Below the pieces are notes generated by a model, which saw nothing but the letters and a program-made list of their open reading frames with translations, ran no database searches and was not told the DNA's origin. This document shows, piece after piece, positions 2,358 through 29,666 of a stretch of DNA of 42,523 nt. Each line of letters begins with the position of its first letter. Position 1 is the first letter of the stretch. Position numbers and translations under genes: made by a program. The DNA comes from a virus. The DNA lies in the IMG/VR virus record IMGVR_UViG_3300044678_003932, positions 1 to 42,523 of that record; one strand, 5' to 3'.

Positions 2358-2366
2358 AGCTTTCCG
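2358..2366 (-). promoter_or_regulatory. Late motif CGGAAAGCT, divergent pair
   Basis: The motif lies 23 nt upstream of ATG 2334 in the direction of that gene. One base separates it from the oppositely oriented copy at 2368-2376, so each of the two divergent genes has its own copy. Confidence 0.65.
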
Positions 2367-2367
2367 G

Positions 2368-2376
2368 CGGAAAACT
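2368..2376 (+). promoter_or_regulatory. Late motif CGGAAAACT for plus-strand gene 2403
   Basis: The motif is followed by CAAGGCA and lies 26 nt upstream of ATG 2403. The same extended form (CTCAAGGCA) follows the copies at 7806 and 26439. Confidence 0.65.
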
Positions 2377-2402
2377 CAAGGCAACCGCCCCCGTGATCAC
2401 CC

Positions 2403-2714
2403 ATGGCCATCACGATCGCCTGGGGGCCACTGGACAGCTTCGACATCGGGGAGCGCATGGTGGTGCAGGGCCGGCGGTTTGATCTGCTGCCAGCCGGGAC
2501 CATGTTCAAGGCCTCCGGGATGCTTCACGGGGTCATGGGTCTGCCTTTGCGCCAGGTCACCACCACCAAGCTTGAGGTCATGGGCGCCAGCTTCGCCCTT
2601 GTCGGCTGGGCCGGCACGCCACGCGAAAGCCTATTGCCATTCGAGGAGCAGATCCTGGCCGCCTACCGGCTGGCACAGCTGCAGTTCGGGGCGGGTGCAC
2701 CGGCAGGGGAATAG
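2403..2714 (+). CDS. Hypothetical protein, isolated plus-strand late gene (103 aa)
   Basis: This is a single plus-strand gene among minus-strand lysis and tail genes. It converges with the coiled-coil membrane protein gene (stops 2 nt apart). The soluble 103-residue protein (MAITIAWGPLDSFDIGERM...) is predicted to be mixed beta/alpha, with no recognised domain. It has its own copy of the late motif 26 nt upstream, so it is probably co-expressed with the late genes although it points the other way. Confidence 0.6.
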   Translation: MAITIAWGPLDSFDIGERMVVQGRRFDLLPAGTMFKASGMLHGVMGLPLRQVTTTKLEVMGASFALVGWAGTPRESLLPFEEQILAAYRLAQLQFGAGAPAGE

Positions 2715-2716
2715 GC

Positions 2717-3151
2717 CTAACGGTGCGGTTGAACCATCGGCGGAGGTGGTACGCGGCGCTCTTGGTGCAGGATCTCCCTGGTGTTGCGGCCGGAGTTGAC
2801 GAGGGCCAGCAGGGCAACGATCACACCGGCGCCTGCCATCGCCACCGCTGCCCATGCGGCAGCTTGGGTGCTGATGCCACCCAGCGCTCTGTCCTTCCCG
2901 CGATCCTCAGCCACCGCTGTCGCCAGGCGGCCCAGCTCAGCCGACAGGGGCTTGAGGTCGTCCTTCGTGGCCAGGTTGCCCTCGATGGTGTTCAATCGCC
3001 GTTCAAGCGTCTCCACCCGCTGATCCCTGGCCTGATTGCCCTGCTGCCAGAGGTTGATTGACGTGAGGATGCTGGACACCTGGCCGGCCAGCATCCCCAC
3101 CTGGTACTCCAGGCTCCCCTTGTTGGCGGCGTTCAGGTCGGTGTCACTCAT
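2717..3151 (-). CDS. Coiled-coil protein with C-terminal membrane anchor, possible lysis protein
   Basis: The 144-residue protein has a helical, heptad-like segment (about residues 40-95), then one strong hydrophobic segment (about 98-119, AAWAAVAMAGAGVIVALLAL), and a short basic/Pro-rich tail. This coiled coil plus C-terminal anchor layout resembles XhlA-type holin-associated proteins, but the resemblance is architectural only. Its start overlaps the upstream stop (ATGA), so it is translated with the tail-fibre genes. Alternatively it may be an unrelated virion membrane or assembly factor. Confidence 0.6.
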   Translation of the reverse strand: MSDTDLNAANKGSLEYQVGMLAGQVSSILTSINLWQQGNQARDQRVETLERRLNTIEGNLATKDDLKPLSAELGRLATAVAEDRGKDRALGGISTQAAAWAAVAMAGAGVIVALLALVNSGRNTREILHQERRVPPPPMVQPHR

Positions 3152-3708: not shown

Positions 3709-3713
3709 GGTCG

Positions 3714-7300: not shown

Positions 7301-7426
7301 CACGGCAAAGCCTGGGGTGGCCTCAGAGCGCCCCAGCACTGCAGGGCCTGTCAGGGTGGTGCTACCGCTGCCAGGAGGGCCAGGAGGGCCCGGTGTTACG
7401 ACCTCAATGACGGCAGGGCAAGTCAT
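4382..7426 (-). CDS. Tail fibre/spike with collagen-like start and right-handed beta-helix
   Basis: This is the largest fibre protein in the window (1014 aa). A PGPPGPPG collagen-like stretch lies at about residues 12-19 (trimer initiation). It is followed by an N-terminal region with several phage-fibre-like segments and, from about 280 to 590, a right-handed beta-helix (pectin-lyase-like) beginning with the FYVSKRIGASNSNNGTSPGEPF motif of tail spikes. The C-terminal part (about 600-1014) is Gly/Thr/Ser-rich beta structure and ends in a small beta domain. It is virion-exposed and likely binds the host surface; whether the helix cuts glycans cannot be told from sequence. It overlaps both neighbours by a few bases. 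Confidence 0.85.
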   Translation of the reverse strand: MTCPAVIEVVTPGPPGPPGSGSTTLTGPAVLGRSEATPGFAVALPLGAGLSIVDGALTATGATNLSYDPATRLLSSSTGADVTLPLVSTTAAGLVPSGWLTGAEAAILPHIHGDLAGRQYAHVRNVSGVQLAAGTPVCVVGAVGDTDRLEVVAADAGDPTKMPAFALLDAALAATGSGRDGHGVISGETVNQNTAAFALRAEVFVAVGGGLTSTIPTSGRVQSVGSISRSHASTGSLAVAIGPALGNAALRNIGTIAGTVAAGDVVAALSARLDQFRDARTFYVSKRIGASNSNNGTSPGEPFLTIGAAVTAANAYRAANPTERAVIEVGPGTYIEASLPMRVASNVLIFSEGGQRSVRITPAAGQELNSFFAVDSGCMIIGLTFAGHQAQNTSATDSTVGTRAWAIQFNELANGGTGVFLTASPYIKDCLSITAEDDAGEAGSTSTGDCGGGVEVDGAKCAANSPVRSMVVYGFTQQNLGGPGIIVRNEAYAELVSFFGLFGTWHVRAETGGQVTMSGGGCSEFGTYGLMADGYSPAAIFTGALLADAAQGATTVDIGSLSANRIGSASRPGPGQLMLLAGTVYVVQSATPITGGFRVAFYSPTSAGLAAAASTGAAVNFRLRSQINAGCHTMNYVGSGTNYSALPWNGGVPIRANETVETNFGRVFGATVNDVGDFKIAGGAFAVDGTTGAVTINTSSFNLSGLNAVGPFSRNGGISTVGVQLQEVSNDINLLASTGVSDGNTAPTQFAARSYTTSRFLQGLTVTAGQPISISDTSTTDAGGFQIRNRNLSLSVGTTAGTVAAGDDGRLSDNREWTAETITQAEAEAGTAATRRAWTAQRVRQAIANWWSGAKAAPGAIGESSPSTGRFTSVGLGGVAPRTGYAAVLGSNVLPRAQIVTVAGSTYTCDIRAANRFMLAAAIAGNTTIAFSNVADLAVTSTFAEYVEVEVDFRYTSGIITISAAGFTTTWDGNSAATPTAGEIETLIVRITPAIASTPFSTATVYVAPMRGRT

Positions 7427-7782
7427 GGGTCTCTCCGTGTTGAGCGAATGGCGACGCTGGCGGGACCTGCTGCCAGGAAGGGGTCATCAGCTAATGACGC
7501 CCCTGGCGCCACCATCAGGCAGTCGTAGCGGTAGGCCTTACCGGGTCGCAGCTGCGCCACCGTGGCCTCCAATGCGATCAGTCGCACCGTGCCCAGCGCG
7601 GCATCAGCTTCCACGGTCACCGGGTAGACATTCCGGCCGCTGGCGTCGCTGATCGTTGCGTTCACGTCGTAGCCAGTGAAAATCCATGGCGTGGTCTTCG
7701 CAGTGTCAGCCCACAGGCGGAACGAGAGGGGGTTGTCCCGGCCCTGCTCCAGCTCCCAGGTTCGGCCCTCAACCCACGCCAC
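7423..7782 (-). CDS. Fibre-attachment or baseplate accessory protein (119 aa)
   Basis: It starts at GTG 7782, 23 nt after the motif at 7806-7814. The 119-residue protein is mostly beta-strand (residues 10-110) with the pattern L-S-F-R...F-x-G-Y-D-V-N-A-T-I-S-D and later Y-R-Y-D-C-L-M-V, similar to small Ig-like domains that precede fibres in siphoviruses (BppU N-terminal type). That likeness is weak. It is coupled to the fibre gene by a 4-nt ATGA overlap, so a fibre connector role is likely. Confidence 0.5.
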   Translation of the reverse strand: MAWVEGRTWELEQGRDNPLSFRLWADTAKTTPWIFTGYDVNATISDASGRNVYPVTVEADAALGTVRLIALEATVAQLRPGKAYRYDCLMVAPGASLADDPFLAAGPASVAIRSTRRDP

Positions 7783-8654: not shown

Positions 8655-9617
8655 TCAGGAGACAGGAGTGGCGTCGGTGATGTTGTTCAGACGAGCCGCA
8701 GCACGCTTGTTCTCCATCACCAGGTTGATGTACCAGGCGATTCGGGTGAGCACGTGCGGGGTCTGGTGCATCTCGCCGATGTCATAAACGGCCAGGCCTT
8801 CCTGACGGCCACCGCTGGGCACCTCGACAAAGCCTTGGATGCCAGTCACCAGGCCCTCACCGAATGCAACGCAGTAGATGCTGCCGGTGCTGTTGGCTTC
8901 CGTGAACCCTTGGATGGGTTCGTTGGCCTCGTCCACGTCCGTGCGGACGATCTGCACGTCGTTGTAGTAGGTCGCCTGCTTTCCGAACTGATTAAGCTGA
9001 AAATCAACATTTCCAGCGAAGCTCGGATTACTGGCGGCAGCCTTGAGCATGCGGCCCATTTTGCGGCCGACAATCAGGATCTTCTGGTCAGGCGGAACGT
9101 CCACCGCATCGATCAGCTCATCGAGCTTGGTGCGGGAGAGGGGGCCGGCAGTGGCGTGGTTGTTGATCAGCTGGCTGGAACCAGAAGTGATCAGGCTTTC
9201 CAAGCCGCGCATGTTGCGCCCGCCGCTTTCGGTGGGGCTGCCCTTGATCACATCACGCTCCAGACGAAGCCGGAGGGCGCGGGCGTTCATTTCCAGTTGA
9301 CGCCGGTGATGGGCGATCCCGAACATGTCAATTGCGGCGCGGTCGCTTTTCACGTCCTTGCCGTAGATCTTGAGCACTTCGGCTTCTTGCGTGATGTTGC
9401 CCACGCTGTCATCGTTCGCCTCGTTCAGGGCACGAGGGGCGATGGTGGGAAGCTCGCGCTCCAGCCCGTAGGCATAGGCGCCACCTTCAACACCAATGAA
9501 GGGGATGAGTGGGTTGAGTTCGGAATAGTTGATGCCGCGACGAACGGCCAGCTCTTGTGTGGGTGCGCCTTGCTCGGCGCGGAGAGCGAATTGCTCCCAA
9601 AGGGTGAGGGTTGCCAC
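8655..9617 (-). CDS. Major capsid protein (HK97 fold, encapsulin-like type)
   Basis: The 320-residue protein matches a capsid family whose N-terminus has a 'LPF...G..Y.Y..E..LP...R.LNE...S.G......E.L.I.G.DV..DR' arrangement. Here it reads NPLIPFIGVEGGAYAYGLE, LPTIAPRALNE and EVLKIYGKDVKSDRA (residues about 35-95), followed by a long helix and a beta-rich A-domain. The start is GTG 9617. A scaffold-like gene precedes it and a possible decoration protein follows. The location is odd: it is downstream of the tail genes, 18 kb away from portal and terminase. It has a long leader (about 200 nt) with a 15-bp repeat and the late motif at 9815-9823. Confidence 0.88.
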   Translation of the reverse strand: MATLTLWEQFALRAEQGAPTQELAVRRGINYSELNPLIPFIGVEGGAYAYGLERELPTIAPRALNEANDDSVGNITQEAEVLKIYGKDVKSDRAAIDMFGIAHHRRQLEMNARALRLRLERDVIKGSPTESGGRNMRGLESLITSGSSQLINNHATAGPLSRTKLDELIDAVDVPPDQKILIVGRKMGRMLKAAASNPSFAGNVDFQLNQFGKQATYYNDVQIVRTDVDEANEPIQGFTEANSTGSIYCVAFGEGLVTGIQGFVEVPSGGRQEGLAVYDIGEMHQTPHVLTRIAWYINLVMENKRAAARLNNITDATPVS

Positions 9618-9852
9618 TGGGCTTGATGATTAGGGGACGAGTGGATGGAGAACCACAGACGCGCTTTCGTACTGCATCGGCGACACCTGCCCGGAATCGC
9701 TCCGCTGCGGTGTTGCTGACGCGAAAGGCATCAGGTGGTGGGTTTGCCCCGTGTAGGCATCGCGCCAAACGGAAGGGCGAACCTGTAGGCATCGCGCCTG
9801 CCAGGTCCGCCCTAAGTTTTCCCGCTACTTACAGCAGGCTTCTTCTACAGAA
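9618..9852 (-). promoter_or_regulatory. Major capsid gene leader with 15-bp direct repeat
   Basis: This 235-nt gap is the longest within the minus-strand late block. It holds the late motif (9815-9823) and two copies of TGTAGGCATCGCGCC (9752-9766 and 9784-9798, plus-strand reading). On the minus strand each copy contains an ATG: 9792 opens a frame that runs into the capsid gene in another phase, and 9760 opens a nine-codon frame. Neither looks like a real protein. A translational or mRNA-stability element for the highly expressed capsid gene is an inference. Confidence 0.4.
9815..9823 (-). promoter_or_regulatory. Late motif GGGAAAACT before the capsid leader
   Basis: The motif lies 197 nt upstream of the capsid GTG, much farther than the usual 22-33 nt, but 22 nt upstream of an ATG at 9792. 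It is followed by TTAGGGC, close to the consensus tail. Confidence 0.6.
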
Positions 9853-10665
9853 TCAGTCCGGGTAGGCCATGTTCAGCAGCTGGGTGGGGGTCATCTTGGC
9901 CAGCTCCTTCGCGTCGCGGCCTTGGGTGGCGCGATAGCCGCGGGCGTTGATGAGGCCACCGGAGCCGGCACCACCGACGGGCTTGAAGTGCACGCCGATC
10001 ACGGACGAGGAATCAGCCTTGAGGTTGAGCCAGTCCTTCAGCTCGATGGGCCCGCTCTTGTCGGCCGCCATGATCGGATCGCCGTCCTTGTCCACCACGA
10101 TGGTGCGGCCGTCCTTGAGCACGAAATTGGCCGCGAGCTGATTGAAGACCGCTTCCGAGTGGGTCAGGCCATCCTCGCCGCCGGGGCGACCGTCAGCGGC
10201 GTTGAACGCCTCGTTGAAGGCGGTTCGGATCGCCAGCTGTTCCTTTGCGGCGATGGCGGCATCACGCTCGGCCTGGAGGCTGTCGCGGTCTTTCTTGTGC
10301 TTTTCGTCCAGCCGGCGGCGGGTTTCATCCACGGCCCTGGTCTTGTCCTCTTCAGCACGCCGCACGCGCTCATCGGCCTCCTCGACCCGTCGACGAGCTT
10401 CAGCCACCTGCTCGGCGATCTGGGGGGACATGTTTTTAAGCTCCCCCAGCTGGCGTTCCAGGGCCCGCACGCGGTCGCGTTCCTTGCGCAGGGCATCCTT
10501 GCCGGCAGAACCCAGGTCGTCGTCATCGTCGCCAGCGGCCGGATCCTTGGCGCCTGTGGCCTTGCCGGTTTCCTGCCCGCCGCCGTCCTCGTCGCCGTCC
10601 GGTGCCTGGTCGACACGGTTCAGCAGCTCGGCCAGGAGGGTGCGAGCGGTCCAGTTGATCTTCAT
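9853..10665 (-). CDS. Scaffolding protein
   Basis: The 270-residue protein sits directly upstream of the major capsid gene. It has a short N-terminal helix, an acidic linker (residues about 20-55, DGDEDGGG, DDDDDLG), a long charged coiled coil (about 55-150, rich in R, E, K and A) and a C-terminal globular part (about 150-270). The C-terminal part has a DGRTIVVDKDGDPIM segment seen in phage head-scaffold/DUF4355-like proteins. Such proteins guide capsid assembly inside the prohead and leave it afterwards. The ATG at 10665 has the late motif 42 nt upstream. Confidence 0.75.
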   Translation of the reverse strand: MKINWTARTLLAELLNRVDQAPDGDEDGGGQETGKATGAKDPAAGDDDDDLGSAGKDALRKERDRVRALERQLGELKNMSPQIAEQVAEARRRVEEADERVRRAEEDKTRAVDETRRRLDEKHKKDRDSLQAERDAAIAAKEQLAIRTAFNEAFNAADGRPGGEDGLTHSEAVFNQLAANFVLKDGRTIVVDKDGDPIMAADKSGPIELKDWLNLKADSSSVIGVHFKPVGGAGSGGLINARGYRATQGRDAKELAKMTPTQLLNMAYPD

Positions 10666-10707
10666 GCGGTGCCGGGGCGTCGCGCCACCGGTGCAAGTTG
10701 CCCCGAT

Positions 10708-10716
10708 AGTTTTCCG
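10708..10716 (-). promoter_or_regulatory. Late motif CGGAAAACT before scaffold
   Basis: The motif lies 42 nt upstream of ATG 10665. A GTG at 10688, 19 nt after the motif, opens an eight-codon frame whose TGA overlaps the scaffold ATG, a possible leader peptide. Confidence 0.6.
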
Positions 10717-12985: not shown

Positions 12986-13716
12986 AACACCACCCCCCTC
13001 ATTGATGCGGTGAACGCGCCAAGCGCTGGATCAAATGCCACGTTGTAGACTCCGCCTGCGCCGAGCGTTACGGTCTCCGGCCTGATGAGTTTTCCGGTCG
13101 TGACTGCCTGGCTCGTGATCGTCGCGGTGTTCGTCACCGTGATCGTGAAGGTGTTGGCCGTGACGTTGGCGATGGTGAAGGTGCCATTCATCCGCGGGAA
13201 CGGCAGCTGGTCAATCACCACCACGTCGCCATTGGCCAGAAGGTGCCCGGTGATCGTCAGGGTGACTGTCGTGCCGCTCTGGGCCACGTTGGTGATGGAT
13301 GCCTGGCCCGTGGTGCCCGCTGACACCATGGCCGCCGTGATGGCGCCAGAGCTGAACAGCGATCCGATCAAGTTCTTGGCGATGGCCGTGTGGTTGTAGA
13401 AGTTGATCGACTTGAATGCAAAGCCGCTGCTGATTGCGCTGATCGTGGGGATGAATGATGGGTTGAACTGGTACGTGCCGCCGATCCATGCGGCAGGCTC
13501 CGTGACGCTTACCGTGACACCCCCCGTGGTGTAGCCGTTGCCGTTCGCCACCTGCACGATGTCGGCGAGGACCGTGTGGCTCTGGATCAACGGCACGCCG
13601 GTGCCCAGGGCAGCCTTGATCGTGTGGATTCCCAGGGCGTGGATGCCCTGCGAGAATGCAGCCGGGACGAAGGCGTGGAACGGGACGAATCCGCACGTTC
13701 TGGTGACAGTGGTCAT
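12982..13716 (-). CDS. Tail protein with embedded beta-domain shared with the major tail protein
   Basis: In this 244-residue protein, residues about 145-225 (ITNVAQSGTTVTLTITGH, GDVVVIDQLPFPRMNGTFTI, NTFTITVTN) follow the same order of signatures as the domain inserted in the major tail protein: 'hGLxxGDxVxVxxxxxxxVNGxFTVxxVxxxTFTYxxT'. This is an immunoglobulin-like or related beta domain found on many virions. The N-terminal 140 residues (HALGIHTIKAALGTGVP) are unplaced. The late motif at 13723-13731 ends only 6 nt before ATG 13716. Confidence 0.6.
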   Translation of the reverse strand: MTTVTRTCGFVPFHAFVPAAFSQGIHALGIHTIKAALGTGVPLIQSHTVLADIVQVANGNGYTTGGVTVSVTEPAAWIGGTYQFNPSFIPTISAISSGFAFKSINFYNHTAIAKNLIGSLFSSGAITAAMVSAGTTGQASITNVAQSGTTVTLTITGHLLANGDVVVIDQLPFPRMNGTFTIANVTANTFTITVTNTATITSQAVTTGKLIRPETVTLGAGGVYNVAFDPALGAFTASMRGVVL

Positions 13717-13722
13717 ACCATC

Positions 13723-13731
13723 AGGTTTCCG
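13723..13731 (-). promoter_or_regulatory. Late motif CGGAAACCT, 6 nt before ATG 13716
   Basis: The motif begins right after the stop codon of the upstream gene. With only 6 nt to the start codon, a -10 reading would put transcription start at or near the A of ATG, a leaderless mRNA. Alternatively this copy acts differently from the others. Confidence 0.5.
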
Positions 13732-17366: not shown

Positions 17367-20300
17367 CAGAATCCGCCGATGGACCGGAGGATCCCGGCAT
17401 TGCTGGGGCTGATCACCTGCACGTTCCAGTCCTTGGCCACGAGGGCGTCCATGCGCGAGGTGAGTCGGTTGATGGCTGCATTGAGTTTTCCGACCCCCTG
17501 CACGCTGCCGGAGCGCTGCGGAGCGATGGCCGCCCTGCTGCCCCCGCGGCCGGACGATGCACCAGCGGCCCCGAATGCTCCCCCGGCGGCCAGGGAAGCG
17601 GTGATGCCAGCGGGTATGACCGTACCGGCGGTGGGGGGCGTCCAGAACCCGTTGCGGGGGGCGGAGATCAGCGACAGATTACCGGCGCGGTCCAGGAACG
17701 ATTCCCGACCCAGCTCGTTGATCCGGTACCGGGTGCCGGCCTCCACATCACCACCAGCCCATCGAGCCTGGGGGACGCTGGCCATGCGCTGCAGGGTGCC
17801 CAGCAGGGCCGTAGCCTGTGTGTTCGCGTTGGCATAGCCATTGGCCAGGGCGCCGGCAGCATCGGCGGCGGCGGCCGTAGATCCGGCGGCGGCATCAAGG
17901 CTGGTCCTGATTTGCACGGTCTGGCCGCCCACGGAGATGAATCCTGCGCTGATGGTCCGCAACTGCCCGGCAACCTGCGCCGTGGATCCGGCGGCGGCGT
18001 CGAGGCTCTGCAGGGGGCCACTGAGCGCGGTTTCCCACCCCTTGGTGGCGGCCTGGGTGGCGAGGCTCCGGGCGGTGGTCTGCTGCTGGGCGGCGAGGGT
18101 CCGTTGCTCAAGACCGAAGATCACCCCGAGGGTCTGGAGCCGGCCGACCTCCGCCTGCTGCTGCTGCTGCGCCAGCCCGATCGCCTGCCGCTGCAAGGCT
18201 ACCTGCTGCTCCAGCGCCTGCCGTTGCCCCCCACCGATCGACGGATCCACCAGCTGCCCCTGCAGCTCCAGCAACCGCTGCCGTTGCTGCAGCGTGTTCT
18301 GCGCCGCCGCACGTTGCGCCGCTTGCGCTTCCAGCACCTGTTGCGCCTGCTTCAGCTCCAGCACGCGCCGCTCCAGCGCAAACCGCTGCTGTGCCGCCGC
18401 GATCGATGCCTCCATCGCCCGGAACTCAAGATTCTCCGCCCCGCGCTTGAGGCCGTTGATCCGTTCCTCCTGCTGGCGGATCGCATCCACCCCGGCCCCG
18501 CGATCCCGCAGCCGCCCTAGCTCCTCCTCAGCCGTCCGCAGCGCAAAGCCCTGCCGGGCGCTGTCCAACCCGAACTGGCTTTCGACCAGCCCTTGCTGCG
18601 CCTGCTGGAGCCCCAGCAAGGCCTCGGCCACCTGCTGCTGAGCACGTAGGCGGCCCAGTGACAGCTGGCTGGCGGTGTTCTCCAGCTCGATCTGTCGGCT
18701 CGTGATGTCCAGTCGCCCCTGCGCGAGCTGCAATACCTGCTGCCGCCGCTGTACCTCCGCCTGAGAGGCTGCCGCTTCGATCTTGGCCACCTCCAGTACC
18801 TTCTGGGCGCGGGCAGACTGCGCCGCAAGGAGGGCCTTCTCGTTGCCGCTTTCTGCGCCCTGCGCCTTGGCTTGCTTGAGCCTGGCGATCAGCTCATCCT
18901 GCCCTTTGATCTCCTCCTCCAATGCCTGCTTACGGGCCCCGGCCATCGCCTTGTCGGCATCGGCTTGGCTGAGCCTGCCTGCCGCGACTTGATTGACCAG
19001 TTCCGCCTCAGCCTCCAGCGCGGACACGCCGATGCGCTGGCCGTACAAGGCGTTGGATTCCTGCTGCGCCTTGACATTCTCATTGAGCTTGCCCTGCAAT
19101 GCAGTCAGGGCAGCGGCTTGCGCATTCACATCAGCGGAACCGTCTTTATTTTGCTTGCGGTAATTTATTGCAAGCTGCTCAAAGCTGGTGGAAATAGCAT
19201 CTGCCGCCCTTGCGTCAATAATCAAGCTGTCGCTTATGGGATCCCTTTTCACCCCTGATAGCCTTACTGCGTTGTCGTATATCCCCTTAAATGCCTCCTC
19301 TGATAGATTGTACTCCTTCCGCAGCCTTTGCACGTTTCCGAGCAGCGCCGCTTGCTCATTACCAAGTCCGCCGATGCTTGACGACAGGCCTAGCGCGACT
19401 CCTTCTTGTTGAAGTTTCAGCTCTGCAATCGCGGCGGTCAGTTGCTTTACCGCGCCAGTGATGACCGGCAGGAGGTTCTGCCCAAAGGCAGTCTGCAGCG
19501 ACTCCCATTCGTTCGTAAACCGTTGCAAGTTCTGCGCGGCGGTTGGCATCCCTTCGGCGCCCTTGGTCAGATCATTCAGGCCCTTGGTGAATGCCGGGAA
19601 GAACTTGTTTGATGACAACTGGCCGGTTTCAACCAGCTTGATCAGCGATTGCGTGCTCATCCCGAGGCCCTTAGCGGTAGCGGCCAGTGCAATCGGCAGT
19701 CGTTCCCCCAGCTGCTGCCGTAGCTCCTCCATGCTCACCGTTCCCTTGGATGCAATCTGCTGCAGCGCCAAGAATGCACCGTTCACCTCATCACTGGTCA
19801 GCCCCAGCGATTGCCCTGCACGCGATACCGCCGTGAAAAGCTCCTGCTGTTGCTGCAGCGGCACATTGGCCGCCGTCGCGGCTGCCGTGAAGCGCCCATA
19901 GCTGCCAACCAGGTCACGAAACGACAGGCCAAGCTGATCGCTGATCCCACGCACAAACCCTAATGCGGCGCCAGCACCCTGCTGGCCGAGAGTATTTGTC
20001 AGCCGACGTGTTGCGGTCTCCAACTGGATCGCCTGGTCAATGGAACTACGGAAGAACTGGGTGATCGCCAGCCCCACCGAAACGCCACCCAGCAGCCCCA
20101 GGGCGCCGCGGACCAGTTCAACCCCCCTTGCAGCAATTCCACCAGCTGCCCCGGCCTTTCTAAGCTCGCGCTCCACGCCATTAATTTCGCTTTGCAGCAC
20201 ACGGAATCGTTGCGATCCGATCGCCACACGTTCCAATTGACCAGTCAGCTCGCCCAATCGACTGCGTAGTGCTGAGATACTGCCGGTGGCTGCTTCGTTC

Positions 20301-20620: not shown

Positions 20621-20643
20621 CGCTGCTACCCGCTCTTGTCCTC

Positions 20644-20652
20644 AGCTTTCCG
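20644..20652 (-). promoter_or_regulatory. Late motif CGGAAAGCT before tape measure
   Basis: The motif lies 23 nt upstream of GTG 20620, followed by GAGGACA. It is paired divergently with the copy at 20688-20696. Confidence 0.65.
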
Positions 20653-21968: not shown

Positions 21969-21977
21969 AGCTTTCCG
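21969..21977 (-). promoter_or_regulatory. Late motif CGGAAAGCT before small basic gene
   Basis: The motif lies 28 nt upstream of ATG 21940 and is part of a divergent pair with 21988-21996. Confidence 0.65.
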
Positions 21978-21987
21978 CAGGGGATCC

Positions 21988-21996
21988 CGGAAACCT
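21988..21996 (+). promoter_or_regulatory. Late motif CGGAAACCT before plus-strand gene 22030
   Basis: The motif lies 33 nt upstream of ATG 22030, the longest distance among the ordinary copies. Confidence 0.6.
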
Positions 21997-22029
21997 CCCC
22001 AGCAAACCAGCACCCCAGGAGTCGCGGCC

Positions 22030-22311
22030 ATGAATGAGCAGCAACCGATGGCGACGACGGTGGCGCAGCAGTTTGAATTGGAACGGATGCGGCGCACCAT
22101 CGAGGGCACCACGGACGTGGTGGAGCTGCAGAAGCTGGCAAAGATGCTCCTGCAGGCCTGGCAAAGCCAGCGGGCGGCCACCGCTTGGGCGATGCGGCAG
22201 GGACTGCAGCGGCCATGGGTTGAGGTCAGAACCGCAGCGCGTGAAGTCCTGACGAGCCAACAAAAAGGCGCCCCCCACGAGGCGCCCGATACTCACGCGA
22301 CAAAAGGCTGA
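22030..22311 (+). CDS. Small helical phage protein, isolated plus-strand gene (93 aa)
   Basis: The protein begins MNEQQPMATTVAQQFELERMRR. A predominantly helical segment (about residues 12-65) ends in AWQSQRAATAWAMRQ. I have the impression of a related short family in cyanophages but cannot name it. It converges with the major tail protein gene. Its C-terminal coding region overlaps that gene's terminator-like hairpin at 22261-22287. Its own late motif lies 33 nt upstream. The function is unknown. Confidence 0.55.
   Translation: MNEQQPMATTVAQQFELERMRRTIEGTTDVVELQKLAKMLLQAWQSQRAATAWAMRQGLQRPWVEVRTAAREVLTSQQKGAPHEAPDTHATKG
22261..22287 (-). terminator. Rho-independent terminator after the major tail protein gene
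   Basis: On the minus strand, GGCGCC pairs with GGCGCC around the loop TCGTGGGG and is followed by TTTTTGTTGG. It lies 50 nt past the stop of gene 22338-23186 and inside the end of the convergent plus-strand gene. With the late motif upstream it makes the major tail gene a likely single-gene unit. Confidence 0.7.
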
Positions 22312-22337: not shown

Positions 22338-23186
22338 TCATAGGCCCACGTTGTCGGGGATGGTGCGGGCAGCGCCGATCATGCTGATCGTGCCGCTGAA
22401 CTTCTGCAGGGTGCCGGCGTCGCCGTCCTCGGATACGGTGACGCGACCGAAGCCGATCTGTGCCTCGCTGGAACCTGCAGGGCCCTGCCGGAGGAACTTG
22501 ACCGCGAGGCCAGGGATCACCCCGTACTCGGACACCATCGTCAACATCTTCCAGGCGTAGCTCTTGCGATCCACCAGCCCGCTGATGGCGTAGGAGAACG
22601 AGTTGGAGCTGGCTACTTGAATGGTGGCGCCGTTGTCCTCAGGGTCGAGGGTGAGGCTCTCGTCGGTCTGCGTGTCGGTGGTCCGGGGTATGCCGGTAAG
22701 GCCCATGATGCGGATGGCCTTGTCGGTGCCATCAAGCTTCAGGATCCCCTTGGCGACGGTGCCGGTGTCAACGCCGGATGCGATGGTGGCGCCGGTGTTG
22801 GCGTAGGTGAAGGTCGTGGTGGTCGGTGCCGACGCAACGGTGAAGACGCCGTTGACAGTGGGATGGGTGGCGGAGGTAACCTGCACACGATCGCCAGCCA
22901 CCAGCCCGTGGGTTGCGGACGTGGTGATGGTGGTGACGTTGGTGGCGCGGGCCACGTTGGTGATCGTCAGGTTGACCTTGTTGGCGAACGAGACGAACGG
23001 CGACGCTTCGGTGCCAACGCCACTCCACTCAAGCCGACCGCGGCCGGTGAGCGCAGTGCTGGTGTCGATGAATGCGGACAGGTTGGTGCGGGCAGCTTCG
23101 AGCTGATCACTATCGACGAGCGACGCCAACATGGGAACCATGTGGGTGATCACATCGACGGTCGCCCCATAGGTGGCGGCAGGCAT
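22338..23186 (-). CDS. Major tail (tube) protein with inserted beta domain
   Basis: The 282-residue protein begins MPAATYGATVDVITHMVPMLASLVDSD. Ends of the chain (about 1-70 and 160-282) form the tube-type beta fold, with ELS/SLTLDPEDNGATIQVA and GVIPGLAVKFLRQGPAG segments. Residues about 74-145 form an inserted beta domain (INVARATNVTTITT, HGLVAGDRVQV, VNGVFTVASAPTTTTFTYANTG), also found in the gene at 12982. It is predicted to be the most abundant tail protein. The ATG lies 25 nt after the late motif, and a strong terminator follows. Confidence 0.75.
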   Translation of the reverse strand: MPAATYGATVDVITHMVPMLASLVDSDQLEAARTNLSAFIDTSTALTGRGRLEWSGVGTEASPFVSFANKVNLTITNVARATNVTTITTSATHGLVAGDRVQVTSATHPTVNGVFTVASAPTTTTFTYANTGATIASGVDTGTVAKGILKLDGTDKAIRIMGLTGIPRTTDTQTDESLTLDPEDNGATIQVASSNSFSYAISGLVDRKSYAWKMLTMVSEYGVIPGLAVKFLRQGPAGSSEAQIGFGRVTVSEDGDAGTLQKFSGTISMIGAARTIPDNVGL

Positions 23187-23211
23187 TTCTTGGACTGGTG
23201 ATGGTGCCCTG

Positions 23212-23220
23212 AGCTTTCCG
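23212..23220 (-). promoter_or_regulatory. Late motif CGGAAAGCT before major tail protein
   Basis: The motif lies 25 nt upstream of ATG 23186 and is followed by CAGGGCA, close to the consensus tail. The copy lies between the chaperone gene's stop (23227) and the tail gene start. Confidence 0.7.
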
Positions 23221-23226: not shown

Positions 23227-23880
23227 TCAGCGAATGATCGGCAGCGTTACCCCCTCACGGGCGAACATGAATGCACCGGTGGTGGCAAGCGCGGCGGGGA
23301 TCATCAGGTCGACCGATTCGCCCTCCTCGGACCAGAGGGTGCGGGGTTGACCGACGGCCTTGCGATCAACGATCAGGAAGCCGCGCCAGTGGTCGGAATC
23401 AGCACGCCATGGGGCAAGGATGATCACATCATCAGCAGCCCAGCAGAGGCGTGCAGGAGGCTCGTGGCCGGCGCCAACCTGCTCCAGTGCCTCGCACCAT
23501 GGCCCGATCGCCCAGCCTGGCATCAGGTCGCGCTGCAGCAATGCCAGCAGGGCGGCACCAGCAGCAGCCGGCGGCAGGGCGGCTTCGGTGCGATCGGCGA
23601 AGAAACAGAAGTCCGCCAGCTCAAACGGCTTGCTGCGTTGCTTGCGGTCCCGGTTTGATTCTGCCTGCATCCATGCGATCTGTGCGGTGCTCAGTTCGGC
23701 GCTGTGGAGGGCATCGCGGCGGCTGCGCTGGCCCTTTTCGATCGCTTGGAGGATGTAGGGCGCCGGGAGCTTCCCGAACCTTTCGCGGGTGCCGTCGGGG
23801 TCGGAGGGGTAGAGGTCTCGGAACTGCCAGAACAGCTCTCCCCAGTCGGGTCTGGGCGAGGTGAGGGTTCCGGCAGCAGC
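23227..23880 (-). CDS. T-like part of tail assembly chaperone, read by -1 frameshift
   Basis: This frame is open without a stop from the slippery site at 23880-23886 to 23227. After the slip it reads GKAAAGTLTS, then WGELFWQFRDLYPSD and ERFGKLPAPYILQAIEKGQRSRRDAL, which is ordinary protein sequence. The zero frame there is only low-complexity Ser/Pro/Arg. The only independent ATG in this frame is at 23670, so the fusion product is more likely the main form. The full fusion (start 24437) is 403 aa. It should act with the short form on the tape measure during tail assembly, as gpG/gpGT do in lambda. Confidence 0.75.
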   Translation of the reverse strand, partial: AAAGTLTSPRPDWGELFWQFRDLYPSDPDGTRERFGKLPAPYILQAIEKGQRSRRDALHSAELSTAQIAWMQAESNRDRKQRSKPFELADFCFFADRTEAALPPAAAGAALLALLQRDLMPGWAIGPWCEALEQVGAGHEPPARLCWAADDVIILAPWRADSDHWRGFLIVDRKAVGQPRTLWSEEGESVDLMIPAALATTGAFMFAREGVTLPIIR

Positions 23881-24437
23881 TTTCCCAGGTCAGCCTCCAG
23901 CTGCGCAATCTGCACCGCGGGATCCACCTCAGGCGTCATGGCGATCTCTTCCCGCCAGGCAACGCCCGCGATGGCTCGCTGCAGCGGCGGCGGCAGTTGC
24001 TGGCTGTCGGCATCAGTCCAATCGGCGCAGCCTTCCAGCCGGCGGACCATGGCGGTGATGCGCCTGATGTTCTGCTCATCCTGCAGCCGCTTGCCCAGGT
24101 GCACGAGGGGCACAAAGATGGCCCAGTGGCGGATCTTCAACGCCTGGTGTTTACGCGACAGGGGCTTGCCGATCCCGCATAGGTTGGCGACGATATTGGC
24201 GAGGGCGGCGTAGGCGTCAACGTCCTGGAGATTGGCGACGCGGGCCAGTTCGACAGCAGCGGCACAAGAATCGGTGTACTGACGGTTTTCAGGATCAAGG
24301 TCACCGATGATTGCCGCTTCGTCACCCCTGAGCCAGCCGTAGAGGGGGATCTGAAGGGTGCCGACGCGATCATCGCCCACGGTGACGAACGGCTCGGCGG
24401 GTTCCGCTGGCTTGACAATAAAGGGTAGGTTTTTCAC
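23691..24437 (-). CDS. Tail assembly chaperone (G-like), 248 aa
   Basis: This is the zero-frame product of the chaperone pair. Residues about 1-170 are conserved-looking (VTVGDDRVGTLQIPLYGWL, NIVANLCGIGKPLSRKHQALKIRHW). The last 60 residues, after the slippery site, are Ser/Pro/Arg low complexity, typical of a C-terminus read only when no slip occurs. I choose GTG 24437: it overlaps the upstream stop as GTGA and lies 25 nt after the late motif. ATG 24452 in the same frame gives only 10 nt. It lies next to the major tail gene, as in lambda. Assigned by synteny and the frameshift. Confidence 0.75.
   Translation of the reverse strand: MKNLPFIVKPAEPAEPFVTVGDDRVGTLQIPLYGWLRGDEAAIIGDLDPENRQYTDSCAAAVELARVANLQDVDAYAALANIVANLCGIGKPLSRKHQALKIRHWAIFVPLVHLGKRLQDEQNIRRITAMVRRLEGCADWTDADSQQLPPPLQRAIAGVAWREEIAMTPEVDPAVQIAQLEADLGKLLPEPSPRPDPTGESCSGSSETSTPPTPTAPAKGSGSSRRPTSSKRSKRASAAAAMPSTAPN
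23880..23886 (-). promoter_or_regulatory. Slippery site GGGAAAG (-1 programmed frameshift)
   Basis: On the minus strand the zero frame reads CTG GGA AAG; after a -1 slip the codons are GGG AAA. This is the same heptamer used by phage lambda in gene G. It precedes a long open -1 frame, while the zero frame ends 63 codons further in low-complexity sequence. The site also resembles the late motif by chance (GGGAAAGCT), so it is not counted there. Confidence 0.8.
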
Positions 24438-24940
24438 TTGACGGTTTTCCATGCGCGTTGGAAGTTTTCCCGGAATGATTGCCTCAATGGGAACACCGGG
24501 ACGCCGGGGTAGGGATCAAGGCCCAGGGGGGCGGTGACGAACGGGCGAGGGGGAAGATACACCTTCGGCCGGCTCTTGTCGCCCCACGGGTGGATCATGG
24601 CGCCGTAGTGGACTGCGGTGGCGTAGCCCAAGGGGAATTTGAAAGTTGCGAGCGCTCCATTGACGATCATGAACCCGGACGCCCGCAGCAGGCCGGTATC
24701 GACGATGTTGCGGGGGCTGCCGACGGGTTTGCCCTTGGTGCGGGTGCCATCCTGCCGATAGGTGGCGCCGCGATAGGTGATGCGCCCTCCTGGCCACTGC
24801 CAGACCTCGCTGCCCATGGTGTCGAGGATGTGGGCCCAGGCCTGGTCGAACGTGATCCTGGCGGCCTGGTTGGCGGCTGCCTGCACGCGACGGGAGAAGG
24901 TGGCATCCACGGCCACACGAGTGCGGACGGTGGCCCTCAT
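24434..24940 (-). CDS. Tail completion or head-tail joining protein (HK97 gp10-like, 168 aa)
   Basis: The chain begins MRATVRTRVAVDATFSRRVQAAANQAARITFDQAW and contains GTRTKGKPVGSPRNIVDTGLL and ATAVHYGAMIHPWGDK, the arrangement of HK97 gp10-like proteins that complete the neck or tail. The C-terminal third is Pro-rich with KVYLPPRPFVTAPLGL. Start ATG 24940 overlaps the previous stop. Position between connectors and chaperones fits. The family call rests on motif order and synteny. Confidence 0.7.
   Translation of the reverse strand: MRATVRTRVAVDATFSRRVQAAANQAARITFDQAWAHILDTMGSEVWQWPGGRITYRGATYRQDGTRTKGKPVGSPRNIVDTGLLRASGFMIVNGALATFKFPLGYATAVHYGAMIHPWGDKSRPKVYLPPRPFVTAPLGLDPYPGVPVFPLRQSFRENFQRAWKTVK
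24463..24471 (-). promoter_or_regulatory. Late motif GGGAAAACT before tail chaperone
   Basis: The motif lies 25 nt upstream of GTG 24437 and overlaps the end of the upstream gene. It supports GTG 24437 as the start of the chaperone gene. Confidence 0.55.
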
Positions 24941-25416: not shown

Positions 25417-25623
25417 TTAGGGCTTGCGGGTGGCGGGCTTCTTCTTCGCCTTCTTCGCCACCATCGCCGCTTCCGACAACGCGATGGCGACCGCCTGCTT
25501 GCGGCTCACGGCCTTGGGGCCCTTGCCGGGGCCTGGCTTGCCGGTCTGCAGCTTGCCAGCCTTGTATTCACGCATCACGGTGGCCACCTTCTTCTGAGCG
25601 GCAGTCGGCTTCTTGGCGGCCAT
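25417..25623 (-). CDS. Small basic protein, DUF6496-like (68 aa)
   Basis: The protein MAAKKPTAAQKKVATVMREYKAG... has the core pattern KVxxVMxExKxGxLxxG then KAVSRKQAVAIALSEA, which I recognise as the DUF6496 type found in bacteria and phages. It is Lys-rich with a basic tail (AKKAKKKPATRKP). Its role is unknown, with DNA or RNA binding plausible. The start is 23 nt after the late motif at 25647-25655. Confidence 0.7.
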   Translation of the reverse strand: MAAKKPTAAQKKVATVMREYKAGKLQTGKPGPGKGPKAVSRKQAVAIALSEAAMVAKKAKKKPATRKP

Positions 25624-25638: not shown

Positions 25639-25818
25639 CTACTCCGAGGTTTCCGCAGCTTCGCTGTCTGCTGGGTCATTTGATCTGAGGTTAAGCCCCG
25701 CAACGGTCAGGCCTGTAGCAATCATTGTCAGCGATCCGACGGTCTTGGAAATGTAAAGATTTGATTCCTTGATCATGTCTTCAACTTTATCAATGAAGGC
25801 TTCAACTTCGCTGGCCAT
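25639..25818 (-). CDS. Small membrane-associated protein (59 aa)
   Basis: I chose ATG 25818 (MASEVEAFIDKVEDMIK) over a TTG-initiated extension from 25845. Residues about 22-46 (YISKTVGSLTMIATGLTVAGLNL) are hydrophobic enough to span a membrane, with a charged helix before and an acidic tail. It is less GC-rich than its neighbours. Holin-like or virion-associated roles are possible but not supported beyond this. Confidence 0.5.
   Translation of the reverse strand: MASEVEAFIDKVEDMIKESNLYISKTVGSLTMIATGLTVAGLNLRSNDPADSEAAETSE
25647..25655 (-). promoter_or_regulatory. Late motif CGGAAACCT before DUF6496-like gene
   Basis: The motif lies 23 nt upstream of ATG 25623, inside the last codons of the upstream small gene. 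Confidence 0.6.
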
Positions 25819-25874
25819 TGGATGGGATGCGATGAGCCCACACAATAGCAGTGCCCGCCTGTGAATACCAGCCC

Positions 25875-26408
25875 TCAGCTCCTCACCAGCCCCGTGTAGC
25901 CGTAGCCGCCATTGGTCACCGGCTGTTGATCCAGCGCCAAGGCGTCAAGCACACGGAACCGGAGCATGGAGATTTCCGCCCGCCGCTGCCCGTCAGCAGT
26001 GCCGGCCGCACCCGCCGCGCCACCGAACTTGTACCGGGCCTTGAGCAGGTCCGTGTTCCATGTCAGCTTGCCGGCCTGGCTCAGCTGCTGGTCCCTCGTG
26101 GGGCTCGTGCCGGGGATAGGGCCCTCGTACTCCTCCGCGTTCGCCAGGTGCGCTGTGCCGGCCCCTACGGCATCGCTGTGGTCCAGCTCCAGGTTCTCGA
26201 TCTGATCCAGCCAGCTCTGAATTGACGCCACGGTGGGCGCGTACCCCTCCGCCAGCTCGTTCATCCGCAGTGTCAGGGTCTGCATTGCCTCGTAGTGGCC
26301 GCCCCAGCCGACGTGCATCCGGATCATTTCGCGGTCGTCCTTCGTCGCCGGTGGCGTGGCCAACATGCTGCGCCACAGCGCATTGAGCGGGGGCAGTGGC
26401 TGAGGCAT
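25875..26408 (-). CDS. Connector or head completion protein (177 aa)
   Basis: The protein begins MPQPLPPLNALWRSMLATPPATKDD. It is mostly helical by composition, with acidic stretches (LENLELDHSDAVGAG, EEYEGPIPG) and an end LDALALDQQPVTNGGYGYTGLV. It is the first gene after a tandem terminator and has its own late motif 30 nt upstream. No family recognised; position suggests a head-tail joining component. Confidence 0.45.
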   Translation of the reverse strand: MPQPLPPLNALWRSMLATPPATKDDREMIRMHVGWGGHYEAMQTLTLRMNELAEGYAPTVASIQSWLDQIENLELDHSDAVGAGTAHLANAEEYEGPIPGTSPTRDQQLSQAGKLTWNTDLLKARYKFGGAAGAAGTADGQRRAEISMLRFRVLDALALDQQPVTNGGYGYTGLVRS

Positions 26409-26438
26409 GGAACGGGGAGGCGCGGCCGGCTTGCCTTG

Positions 26439-26447
26439 AGGTTTCCG
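26439..26447 (-). promoter_or_regulatory. Late motif CGGAAACCT downstream of tandem terminator
   Basis: The motif lies 30 nt upstream of ATG 26408, followed by CAAGGCA. It sits directly after two terminator-like hairpins, the clearest place where a promoter is needed. Confidence 0.7.
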
Positions 26448-26463
26448 GGGGCGGTCGGCAACA

Positions 26464-26545
26464 AGAAAGGGCCCCGAAGGAGCCCTTTCTCACAAAACAA
26501 CCCCGATAGCTGCTCTGGCCTGAGAAACGAGCGCAGCTGTCGGGG
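26464..26545 (-). terminator. Tandem rho-independent terminators after portal/MuF unit
   Basis: Read on the minus strand, the first hairpin (26501-26545) has a 13-bp stem with one mismatch (CCCCGACAGCTGC with GCAGCTATCGGGG) and is followed by TTGTTTTGTG. The second (26464-26490) has a perfect 9-bp stem AGAAAGGGC/GCCCTTTCT, followed by TGTTG. They end the unit of portal, MuF-like protein and gene 26597-26956. Confidence 0.8.
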
Positions 26546-26596
26546 ACACCACCGAGGAAGGAGCCCCGATGCCCAAACAATACCACCCCCACGCCC

Positions 26597-26956: not shown

Positions 26957-27026
26957 GGTGTCAAGCGGTTCGGGTCAGTTTGTGCGGATTCTTCAGATTT
27001 TGCAAGGCTGATGGCATGGGGGCCCC

Positions 27027-28094
27027 TCACACCACCGGCAGCGCCGCGGTCTTGATGCCAGGGAACTGCCGCTTCTCCGATGGCGACGGCTTGCGCAGGT
27101 GCTCCTCCAGCACCTTCGAGGCCCGCTCAAACGGCCAGCCCTTGCCCCGTGCAAACGCCTTGGCCACGTCCTCCTGTGACTGCTCCCAGTAGGCGCTGCG
27201 GAGCATCTGGGCGCGGGCCTTGGGGTCCTTTTCTTCTACAGCTTCGGAAGATACCGCAGCGATTGAACACTTGCAGCGAGGATGCTGAGTTCCCACTAAC
27301 TCGCTGAGCAGGTATATGTTCCCATGGCGGCTAACGCAGTATGCACAGGTGTTTTCGCTTTTCGTCGCAATCCACCGCGCATACTCATACCCATTCCGTT
27401 CCGCCGCCGTCTTCTGTGCGTTCACGTAGGCATTGCTCAGCTCGCTCCTGGCGATCAGCTCGGCACGTTGCAGCAGGCCCATGGACCGGGTGAGCCCCTG
27501 CGGATCCTTGGCACCCTGCAGCGCCACCCGCACGTCCCGCTCAATCGCCCGGAAGCCCTGGCCCCTGCTGACACCGCTGGTGACGATCTGCCCGAGGCGA
27601 TCCCGGAAGCTCTCCACCTCCGCCCTGATGTACGCGCTGGTGGTGTTGGCCGCCGCCTTGATCGCCTCACGGTTGGGCCCCACGAACGGCGATGCGGCCA
27701 CGGTGTTGGGTGCGGTCAGCTCAATCAGCTGGCGTTCCAGCTCGCCCCCAAGGGCTGTGGCAGCTTCCAGATCGGCCGCGTACCGCTGGCTCAGCGCCTG
27801 CAGTTGCTTGGGGCCCAGGAACGCCTGAGCGATCTTCTGCAACTCGGTGAGCTTCCGGCTGCTCTCGGCGATGCTGTAGGACCGTGGGCGCCTGGTGACG
27901 CCATCGGCGGAGCGTTCGGCCGGCAGCTGGGGATTGACCGCATCCGCGTACCAGCGCCGGAGATCCCGCAACGTGGCCCGCATGGCCGCCAGCAATGCCT
28001 TCCTGGTGTTGGCCGTCGATCGATCGCCGATCCCGTCAAGGGCTTCGGCGAAGTCGTCGGCAAGCGTCAGCTGCTGGTCGCCGATGGTGGCCAT
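27027..28094 (-). CDS. Phage head morphogenesis protein (MuF-like)
   Basis: The 355-residue protein has a C-terminal MuF domain (about 205-295) with RAELIARSELSNAYVNAQ, then ENTCAYCVSRHGNIYLLSE and a final QHPRCKCSIAAV, the Cys pattern typical of this family. A long helical N-terminal half (about 1-200) contains coiled-coil-like RRWYADAVNP and ELERQLIEL segments. Such proteins work with the portal in prohead assembly and are often packaged. It is directly downstream of the portal gene. The start is ATG 28094. Confidence 0.85.
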   Translation of the reverse strand: MATIGDQQLTLADDFAEALDGIGDRSTANTRKALLAAMRATLRDLRRWYADAVNPQLPAERSADGVTRRPRSYSIAESSRKLTELQKIAQAFLGPKQLQALSQRYAADLEAATALGGELERQLIELTAPNTVAASPFVGPNREAIKAAANTTSAYIRAEVESFRDRLGQIVTSGVSRGQGFRAIERDVRVALQGAKDPQGLTRSMGLLQRAELIARSELSNAYVNAQKTAAERNGYEYARWIATKSENTCAYCVSRHGNIYLLSELVGTQHPRCKCSIAAVSSEAVEEKDPKARAQMLRSAYWEQSQEDVAKAFARGKGWPFERASKVLEEHLRKPSPSEKRQFPGIKTAALPVV

Positions 28095-28097
28095 GGG

Positions 28098-29627
28098 TTA
28101 CTCGTTCGGCTCATCCACCACCGGCCCCGCCCCCGGTACGTCCCACCCGTTCGGATCGTTCGCGTCCGGCGTGTCCGCCCCGTTTTCTTCATCCGCCTTC
28201 TGCTCCTCCTCCAGTGCCGCCACCTCATCGTCTGCCGTCATGCCCTGTGGCAACAGGCCAGCACGCGCCACCAGGCTCACCGCAGTCTTCCGTGTCGCCA
28301 GCGTAGCATTATACCATTCGCGCATTTCTCGTAGCGTTTCAATATCAATCGGCTTCTCAACTAGCCCCTTCTCCATCTCCAGCCCAGCATCCGCCGGCAG
28401 CTGCTCACCCGCCATCTCCGCCCACAACGCCATCACGCTCTGCATCACGCTCCCCTTCGCTTCCGCCACCCCCGCCAGGGAGGACGTGAGTTGAGCGCTG
28501 GCCAGGATCGCCTCTGTGGCCGTTCGATCGGTTGCCGAGCCACTCATCAGGAACGCCAGCGTCTGGCGGTCCATCAGCCCCTCCGTGTGCTCCAGGCTCT
28601 TATGCCGCAGCTCCAGGCTGCTCCCGCTGATCTCCTCCCACCGGAAGTCACCCTCAGGGTTGGGAATGTCCACGATGCTGTTCGGGCCGATCTCAAGCGG
28701 TGCCGATCGCGGCTGCCCGTCAGCCCCCATCACCGACGGCATCCCCTTGCGCACGCCAACCGGCAATGCGCAGCGGTGCAGCAGCTCCTCCTGGTCGGAG
28801 TCCTTGCGATACCAGCTGAGCGATAGCTCCGCCAGGTTCTGCAGCATCAGCAGGCCACGGCCAAAGCCGCCACCAACTGACCCTGAATACCAGACCACCG
28901 GCGGGGCCTGCAGCGGCGTGTCACCTGCGCCGGTGAACACGCCCCGATCCACCACCTTCTTCTCCCACGAGCCCCGCCGCTTGCTCTCAACCAGCTGGAT
29001 CAGCTGCCACTGGCCGCCCCTCATCACCCGGTACCGCGGCTCGATCTTGACCCCGAACTCACCATCCTCCACCTCGTGGAATTCGCGCACCGTCACCGCG
29101 ATCGGCACCTCTCGCCCATTGACCTTCACCGTTCGCCAGTTCAGCACCGACGACCGCTCGGCCATCGTCAACAGGGGCCGCCGCTGCAGTGCCCTCTCGT
29201 CCCCGCGGTTGGCCGGTAGGTCCTTCGGCATGTCGACCATGAGCAGGCAGCCCTGGTCGCGCAGCACCAGCGCATCGGCAAGCAGCAGGAATGCCTTCAG
29301 GCTCGTGCCCTCCCCGTCGATGTTGTCCTGTGCCGTCTCGAAGCTCTGCGGGGCTGATCGCAACGACCATCGACTGAGGGCACCGGCAAAGCCGATCACG
29401 CCATCGCGGTAGAACGAAGGGTATTTCGATCGCATCACCCGGCCGGTATATGCCCGCTGCGGTTCTTTTGGTTCCTTCGGTAGATATTTAGCCCTTGCAC
29501 CACGCAGTAAATCCCAGCAGTCGCGCACCATCTCAAGGTCGTCAGCGACTTCCTTCAGCCCAGGATGCACGTAAGACGGCAGATTGGGGTCGTCTGTTGG
29601 ATGTGAGATCTTTTCGGCTTGCGCCAC
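28098..29627 (-). CDS. Portal protein (DUF4055-type)
   Basis: The 509-residue protein resembles DUF4055-type portals. The N-terminus contains HPTDDPNLPSYVHPGLKEVADDLEMVRDCW and the YLPKEPKEPQRAYTGR region, with a beta-rich stem and wing domain in the middle. A helical crown near the C-terminus ends in an acidic Asp/Glu-rich tail. The ring of subunits forms the DNA channel and docks the terminase. The start is GTG 29627, 30 nt after the late motif, directly after the sigma factor gene. The placement terminase, sigma, portal, MuF supports it. Confidence 0.85.
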   Translation of the reverse strand: MAQAEKISHPTDDPNLPSYVHPGLKEVADDLEMVRDCWDLLRGARAKYLPKEPKEPQRAYTGRVMRSKYPSFYRDGVIGFAGALSRWSLRSAPQSFETAQDNIDGEGTSLKAFLLLADALVLRDQGCLLMVDMPKDLPANRGDERALQRRPLLTMAERSSVLNWRTVKVNGREVPIAVTVREFHEVEDGEFGVKIEPRYRVMRGGQWQLIQLVESKRRGSWEKKVVDRGVFTGAGDTPLQAPPVVWYSGSVGGGFGRGLLMLQNLAELSLSWYRKDSDQEELLHRCALPVGVRKGMPSVMGADGQPRSAPLEIGPNSIVDIPNPEGDFRWEEISGSSLELRHKSLEHTEGLMDRQTLAFLMSGSATDRTATEAILASAQLTSSLAGVAEAKGSVMQSVMALWAEMAGEQLPADAGLEMEKGLVEKPIDIETLREMREWYNATLATRKTAVSLVARAGLLPQGMTADDEVAALEEEQKADEENGADTPDANDPNGWDVPGAGPVVDEPNE

Positions 29628-29657
29628 CAGCCGCCCCGCAATCTTCCTATTGACTGG

Positions 29658-29666
29658 AGCTTTCCC
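29658..29666 (-). promoter_or_regulatory. Late motif GGGAAAGCT before portal, first late copy
   Basis: The motif lies 30 nt upstream of GTG 29627 and 10 nt past the sigma factor stop. It is the first copy in transcription order and sits at the apparent border between early and late genes. Confidence 0.65.

Follow-up and report, generated by a model that had tools for sequence, protein, structure and literature searches.

The viral DNA considered here is IMG/VR record IMGVR_UViG_3300044678_003932, positions 1 to 42,523 (hereafter the window, i.e. this whole stretch of 42,523 nucleotides (nt)), which is possibly a fragment and carries the siphovirus genes for a tape measure, a portal, a major head protein and TerL. 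Late genes in the window are preceded by a 9-base motif, [CG]GGAAA[ACG]CT, and a sigma factor is encoded between TerL and the portal. The portal protein is closest to those of the cyanosiphoviruses S-CBS2, S-CRES1-3 and P-SS2 (37-38% identity), and a profile of these portals led to Cyanobium contigs, among them a metagenome-assembled one (L146) with the gene order TerL, sigma, portal, so that a picocyanobacterial host is likely for this phage as well.

The sigma gene overlaps TerL and closes the leftward block of presumed early and middle genes; its stop codon lies 9 bases before the first late motif, that of the portal. Similarly, in seven related contigs (L014-L020) the motif follows the sigma match at a distance of 13-15 nt from its end, and a sigma gene follows TerL in S-CBS2, S-CRES3 and P-SS2. 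The best NCBIfam hits of the protein are SigBFG and SigF, which fall below the full-length cut-offs (SigBFG, E=2.6e-18, covers region 2 only), and Pfam Sigma70_r2 matches at E=1.5e-9. Sigma70_r2 was detected in all six homologues compared (the window and five others), some under the Pfam gathering score, while no Pfam region 4 was found at E<=10 in these six or at E<=1 in three more. Pfam region 3 was not found in the window sigma, and a more distant homologue, from G007, matches it weakly (E=0.015). AlphaFold models of the protein were weak: the first (mean predicted local distance difference test, pLDDT, of 42) was unusable, and the second (58) is confident only around region 2 and moderate in region 3 (helices at 141-190). 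The top Foldseek hits of the sigma model were nearly all sigma factors, with low template modelling (TM) scores. A scan of species genomes for the sigma found none. As a separate observation, GGTAGACT lies 22-25 nt upstream of the sigma genes of S-CBS2 (L023 16833), S-CRES3 (L027 12572) and P-SS2 (L025 2091); this variant, which has T at -12, possibly acts as a middle-type promoter or as one under autoregulation.

An exact search on both strands of the window returned 19 motif matches against 1.67 expected (standard deviation 1.40), and none of 100 dinucleotide shuffles reached 19. The original prediction, which reckoned with about two chance matches, was right in this respect, and all 15 copies that it listed are present with their positions and strands, although the list was incomplete. 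Of the 19 matches, 15 lead codirectional late genes, and 14 sit 5-45 nt upstream of a codirectional start, as do 2.4% of positions (P = 2e-19), in agreement with the earlier view that the motif points with its gene on either strand. The other four (13088, 17484, 23878 and 34924) are all intragenic and on the minus strand, 23878 being a slippery sequence of the lambda type, GGGAAAG. No gene-start match falls outside the late side of the sigma gene, genes deep within units have no motif, and inverted single genes each have their own copy. The spacing to the start codon had been given as 22-33 nt except at 9815, 10708 and 13723; these exceptions hold, but the distance is 37 nt at 21988 and, counted to the first ATG, 10 nt at 24463 (Table 1). 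At the latter site an in-frame GTG at 25 nt lines up with the ATG of the relatives L017 and L020. Comparison with related phages, which had also been proposed, revealed conserved motif positions in several contigs (L009-L013, L014-L020).

The 9-mer belongs to a longer element of 16 bases, [CG]GGAAANCT-CAAGGCA. In an alignment of 40 sites from the window and its relatives, in which the search itself had set columns -15 to -7 but not -6 to +1, conservation is confined to -16 to +1. The unselected columns show CAAGGCA or CAGGGCA, and position +1 is A in 31 sites and a purine in 37; some of the sites are orthologous and hence not independent, and the flanks nonetheless show nothing. A weight matrix derived from the relatives only gave 18 hits above 9 bits in the window, most of them at gene starts, compared with 1-3 in simulated sequence. 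The CTcAaGGcA-like tail of the original prediction is thereby real, although it is weak or absent at 21969 and 21988 (scores below 9 bits), and sites 2358 and 24463 are barely over the threshold. Numbering the T as -7 places the invariant A at -11, and the core [C/G]GGAAA then lines up position for position with the SigB -10 box GGGWAW, its first base being C or G rather than G. In Staphylococcus aureus, sigma2 together with sigma3 reads this box, the fifth base of which (-11A) is flipped (PMC11156646). No information was found from -60 to -17 in the 40 window-family sites, and a word search upstream of the motif gave no convincing enriched -35 word. In P-SS2, CTAG was considered as a -35 candidate (9 occurrences in upstream stretches against 1.3) and rejected, as it presumably reflects stop codons of the preceding genes. 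A scan of positions 1-34000 of the window for sigma-70-type promoters showed no excess. Of the two original suggestions, a -10 half of a late promoter or an RNA element, the former is thus the better supported, except that it has no second half, as the -35 is absent.

At 13723 the gap to the ATG is only 6 nt, in the same register in L009, L010, L011 and L157, and the predicted +1 is therefore the A of the ATG. Further predicted leaderless sites occur in G007 (15381, gap 6; 8903, gap 5) and L017 (11356), and a site in P-SS2 that directly follows a terminator-like sequence has a gap of 5 nt. Across five SigF-bearing phages, the window included, gaps of 19-31 nt were observed 68 times against 3.0 expected, and gaps of 7-14 nt once against 1.9. 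A leader of either zero or at least ~13 nt is the pattern expected if transcription begins at the predicted base.

When the regions upstream of genes were searched for enriched words with no pattern given in advance, GGAA..CT emerged in P-SS2 (in 17 of 40 such stretches, P=1e-20), and GG.A..CT(A) in both S-CBS2 and S-CRES3 (P<1e-12); these P-values withstand the large number of words tested. The same search in S-LBS1, which has no TerL-linked SigF, gave nothing below P=2.8e-5. With the fixed pattern GG[AC]ANNCT located 15-35 nt before starts, the phages with SigF gave 11/50 (window), 17/101 (S-CBS2), 10/94 (S-CRES3), 14/73 (S-CRES1) and 21/111 (P-SS2), and those without it 3/51 (S-LBS1), 1/46 (S-CBS3), 1/63 (KBS-S-2A) and 0/43 (S-CBS1), i.e. 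73/429 versus 5/203 in total (Fisher P = 1e-8). A pattern scan of the whole of IMG/VR returned 108 stretches, most of them chance-like, and led to a further lineage (G007/G008/G010), where G007 and G010 have a sigma of 36% identity in the order TerL-sigma-portal. Strict matches number 12 in G007 and 8 in G010, with ~1.5 expected in each (1.55 in G007); most of those in G007 are at gene starts, and they include a divergent back-to-back pair (20429/20436).

We consider it highly probable that the motif is the -10 element of late promoters without a -35, used by the host RNA polymerase with the truncated SigF/SigB-type sigma of the phage, and the same predicted pairing of promoter and sigma is present in distantly related cyanobacterial viruses. 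This reading rests on features of the sequence: enrichment, orientation, position, block boundaries, the missing -35 conservation, the sigma domains and the co-occurrence of motif and sigma. From these we infer the binding of the sigma to the motif, the exact start base and the late timing. Early and middle genes would be read by the host enzyme, and the sigma, made at the end of that block, would join the host core and recognise the -10-only late promoters. The 16-mer [C/G]GGAAANCTCAAGGCA would span -15 to +1, with A-11 flipped, T at -7 and the closing A as transcription start. The sigma would switch on the portal promoter right behind its own stop codon as well as ~14 more on both strands of the late half, typically giving leaders of 14-25 nt or none at all. 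The protein keeps region 2, may retain a region-3-like part and has no recognisable DNA-reading region 4, and the flap could be occupied by a gp33-like partner or by the sigma's own C-terminal helices, which are modelled with low confidence.

Several observations weigh against this. Sigma and motif are linked by association only, and because the sigma-bearing phages have a common ancestry the events compared are not independent; moreover, S-LBS1 shows a slight motif excess without SigF (3 versus 0.55, P = 0.02). Terminators just upstream of the motif occur in several phages but are only modestly commoner than elsewhere (12/93 versus 17/336), with P-SS2 showing the opposite, and two window sites, 21969 and 21988, are without the conserved tail. 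Finally, the three low-confidence C-terminal helices of the modelled sigma could be a degenerate region 4.

Promoters read by a host sigma, SigF or SigA, instead of that of the phage would explain the motif in another way, which we regard as improbable. Similar -10 boxes would be expected for host sigmas of the SigF type, the hexamer xAxxCT is like TATACT, and some non-late genes of S-CBS2, S-CRES3 and KBS-S-2A have GGTATACT-like sites upstream. However, S-CBS1, S-CBS3, KBS-S-2A and S-LBS1 infect Synechococcus too and have little or no excess of GG[AC]ANNCT, the motif differs from TATAAT at -12, -10 and -8, and gene-start matches keep to the late side of the phage sigma gene. Slightly less probable still is an RNA element in the 5' untranslated region, either a translation enhancer or a protein-binding site. 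The mostly short, fixed distance to the start codon would suit such an element, as would the scarcity of Shine-Dalgarno-like sequences at motif starts, which is not distinctive (3/13 versus 9/37 elsewhere). Yet the conserved block stops where +1 would be, leaderless sites leave no leader to act in, genes deep in units do without the motif, and there is no Rfam match. The promoter is favoured over the RNA element by this block geometry and by the leaderless cases, as well as by the divergent copies (the 9-mers of the pair 2358/2368 are only one base apart) and by the match to the SigB -10 box, whose A-11 register fits sigma biochemistry.

GGAAA also resembles the GGAAC-like -35 boxes of extracytoplasmic function (ECF) sigmas, such as GGAACA of Mycobacterium tuberculosis SigH, and the motif might accordingly be a -35 element with its -10 further downstream. 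We give this very little credence: there is no conserved block 16-17 nt downstream, a start ~33 nt downstream would lie within many coding regions and, at the leaderless sites, far into the gene, and the phage sigma is SigF-like, not ECF. A mixed set, by contrast, is compatible with the -10-only promoter reading and is a tangible, if tentative, possibility: most copies would be promoters, with 21969, 21988, 24463 and 17484 being chance or coding matches. The weak tails of the first three and the overlap of 24463 and 17484 with coding sequence speak for it, but 21969 and 24463 are at standard distance from starts, and L016 has 24463 conserved at the same place, while L017 and L020 have it as GGGTAAACT. 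The 17484 site is found in L009-L011, though coding constraint can explain its presence.

Table 1. The sigma gene, the predicted promoters and associated features of the window. Site: first base of the 9-mer on the plus strand; gap: nt between last motif base and start codon.
Positions	Strand	Feature	Site	Gap	Basis or remark
29676..30656	-	SigF/SigB-type (group 3) sigma factor, between TerL and portal			PHROG 351 E=6.5e-22
29651..29666	-	Predicted late promoter of portal unit (start 29627), GGGAAAGCTCCAGTCA	29658	30	9 bases past sigma stop codon
26463..26488	-	Intrinsic terminator (aaagggctccttcggggccctttctt) directly upstream of 26439 promoter
26432..26447	-	Predicted late promoter of gene 25875-26408, CGGAAACCTCAAGGCA	26439	30	Exact match and matrix
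25640..25655	-	Predicted late promoter of gene 25417-25623, CGGAAACCTCGGAGTA	25647	23	Exact match and matrix
24456..24471	-	Predicted late promoter of tail-chaperone gene, likely start GTG 24437 (gap 25)	24463	10	Low matrix score, 9.0
23878..23886	-	Non-promoter match: GGGAAAG slippery heptamer, tail assembly chaperone frameshift	23878
23205..23220	-	Predicted late promoter of tail protein 22338-23186, CGGAAAGCTCAGGGCA	23212	25	Exact match and matrix
21988..22003	+	Possible late promoter of gene 22034-22252 (+), tail poorly matched	21988	37	Matrix <9 bits
21962..21977	-	Probable late promoter of small basic gene starting 21940, tail poorly matched	21969	28	Matrix <9 bits
20688..20703	+	Predicted late promoter of plus-strand gene starting ATG 20723	20688	26	Exact match and matrix
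20637..20652	-	Predicted late promoter of tape measure unit (start 20620)	20644	23	Exact match and matrix
17477..17492	-	Possible internal promoter within tape measure gene, CGGAAAACTCAATGCA, 117 nt before start 17366	17484		Matrix score 19.2
13716..13731	-	Predicted late promoter of gene 12982-13716, predicted +1 = A of ATG (leaderless)	13723	6
10701..10716	-	Predicted late promoter of scaffold gene 9853-10665	10708	42	Exact match and matrix
9808..9823	-	Predicted late promoter of major capsid unit (start 9617), leader ~190 nt	9815	197	Conserved in L009-L013
7799..7814	-	Predicted late promoter of gene 7423-7782 and downstream tail-fibre genes, GGGAAAACTCAAGGCA	7806	23	Exact match and matrix
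2368..2383	+	Predicted late promoter of plus-strand gene 2403-2714, CGGAAAACTCAAGGCA	2368	26	Exact match and matrix
2351..2366	-	Predicted late promoter of minus-strand gene starting ATG 2334	2358	23	Matrix score 10.3

The match at 23878 is not regarded as a promoter because GGGAAAG is the slippery heptamer of the chaperone frameshift (lambda G/GT-type, -1); it stands in the same context in L016, L017 and L020, and G007 has a copy at 10910. The ~190-nt capsid leader (9617-9823, minus strand) contains a conserved hairpin (AGGGCGGACCTG...CAGGTTCGCCCT) that begins near the predicted transcription start, and it has no match in Rfam. Dispersed genes whose products start MAR-TYKRD-GRFA-like are found in both orientations, each preceded by a late motif of its own, at 20723(+) in the window, 8375(-) and 9670(+) in L016, 20471(-) in L020, and 20436(+), 20429(-), 14361(-) and 13041(-) in G007; they look like a family of independently transcribed cargo genes. 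Elsewhere in the window, four head-to-tail repeats of 23 nt (CCCATGTGCCACGGTGGCACATC-like, palindromic) at 39152-39243 lie inside a replication-initiator-like gene (38790-39917) and could be origin iterons, and a pentapeptide-repeat protein (Pfam PF00805, E=6.5e-18) is encoded at the left end (1-558, plus strand).

The T4 late box is TATAAATA, from which the box described here, GGAAANCT, differs. The late system of T4 (gp55/gp33/gp45) is nevertheless the nearest working parallel by analogy, since it likewise combines a phage sigma without a DNA-reading domain 4 with late promoters without a -35, gp33 replacing domain 4 without reading DNA (PMC2988020). The sigma here is SigF/SigB-like (group 3) and not classed as gp55; no gp55 family was among its PHROG hits, no direct gp55 comparison being made, and no gp33 or sliding-clamp co-activator was identified, no search having been aimed at them. 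It seems somewhat probable that cyanosiphoviruses evolved, independently of T4, a SigF sigma without a -35-reading domain and a -10-only promoter, with some starts at the A of the start codon; the findings suggest that the loss of sigma domain 4 and -10-only late promoters arose outside the T4 lineage. Among SigB/SigF promoters (S. aureus SigB; cyanobacterial SigF), the GGGWAW -10 with its -11A is in register with [C/G]GGAAA (PMC11156646), but SigB has a -35 (GTTTWW) and sigma region 4, neither of which was detected here, and the phage box extends to C-8 T-7. A late promoter motif has also been described for the cyanophage Ma-LMM01, which, unlike the present one, is SigA-like and was proposed to depend on the host sigma (PMC5780444). 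No earlier report of the present motif was found in the open-access literature, outside which most subscription papers lie. If correct, the motif can be used to annotate late units in uncultured cyanophages, and it yields base-exact start predictions for the cultured S-CBS2, S-CRES and P-SS2, which place the 5' ends of late transcripts 6-7 nt downstream of the T in GGNANNCT. A further close system is the group 3 sigma of P-SS2, the same gene adjoining TerL (Sullivan et al. 2009, PMC2784084). That paper scanned for sigma-70 promoters only and named no cognate motif (PMC2784084), whereas the motif was recovered in P-SS2 in the present analysis, which would assign to the group 3 sigmas of cyanosiphoviruses the cognate promoter that had been open since the P-SS2 genome paper of 2009.

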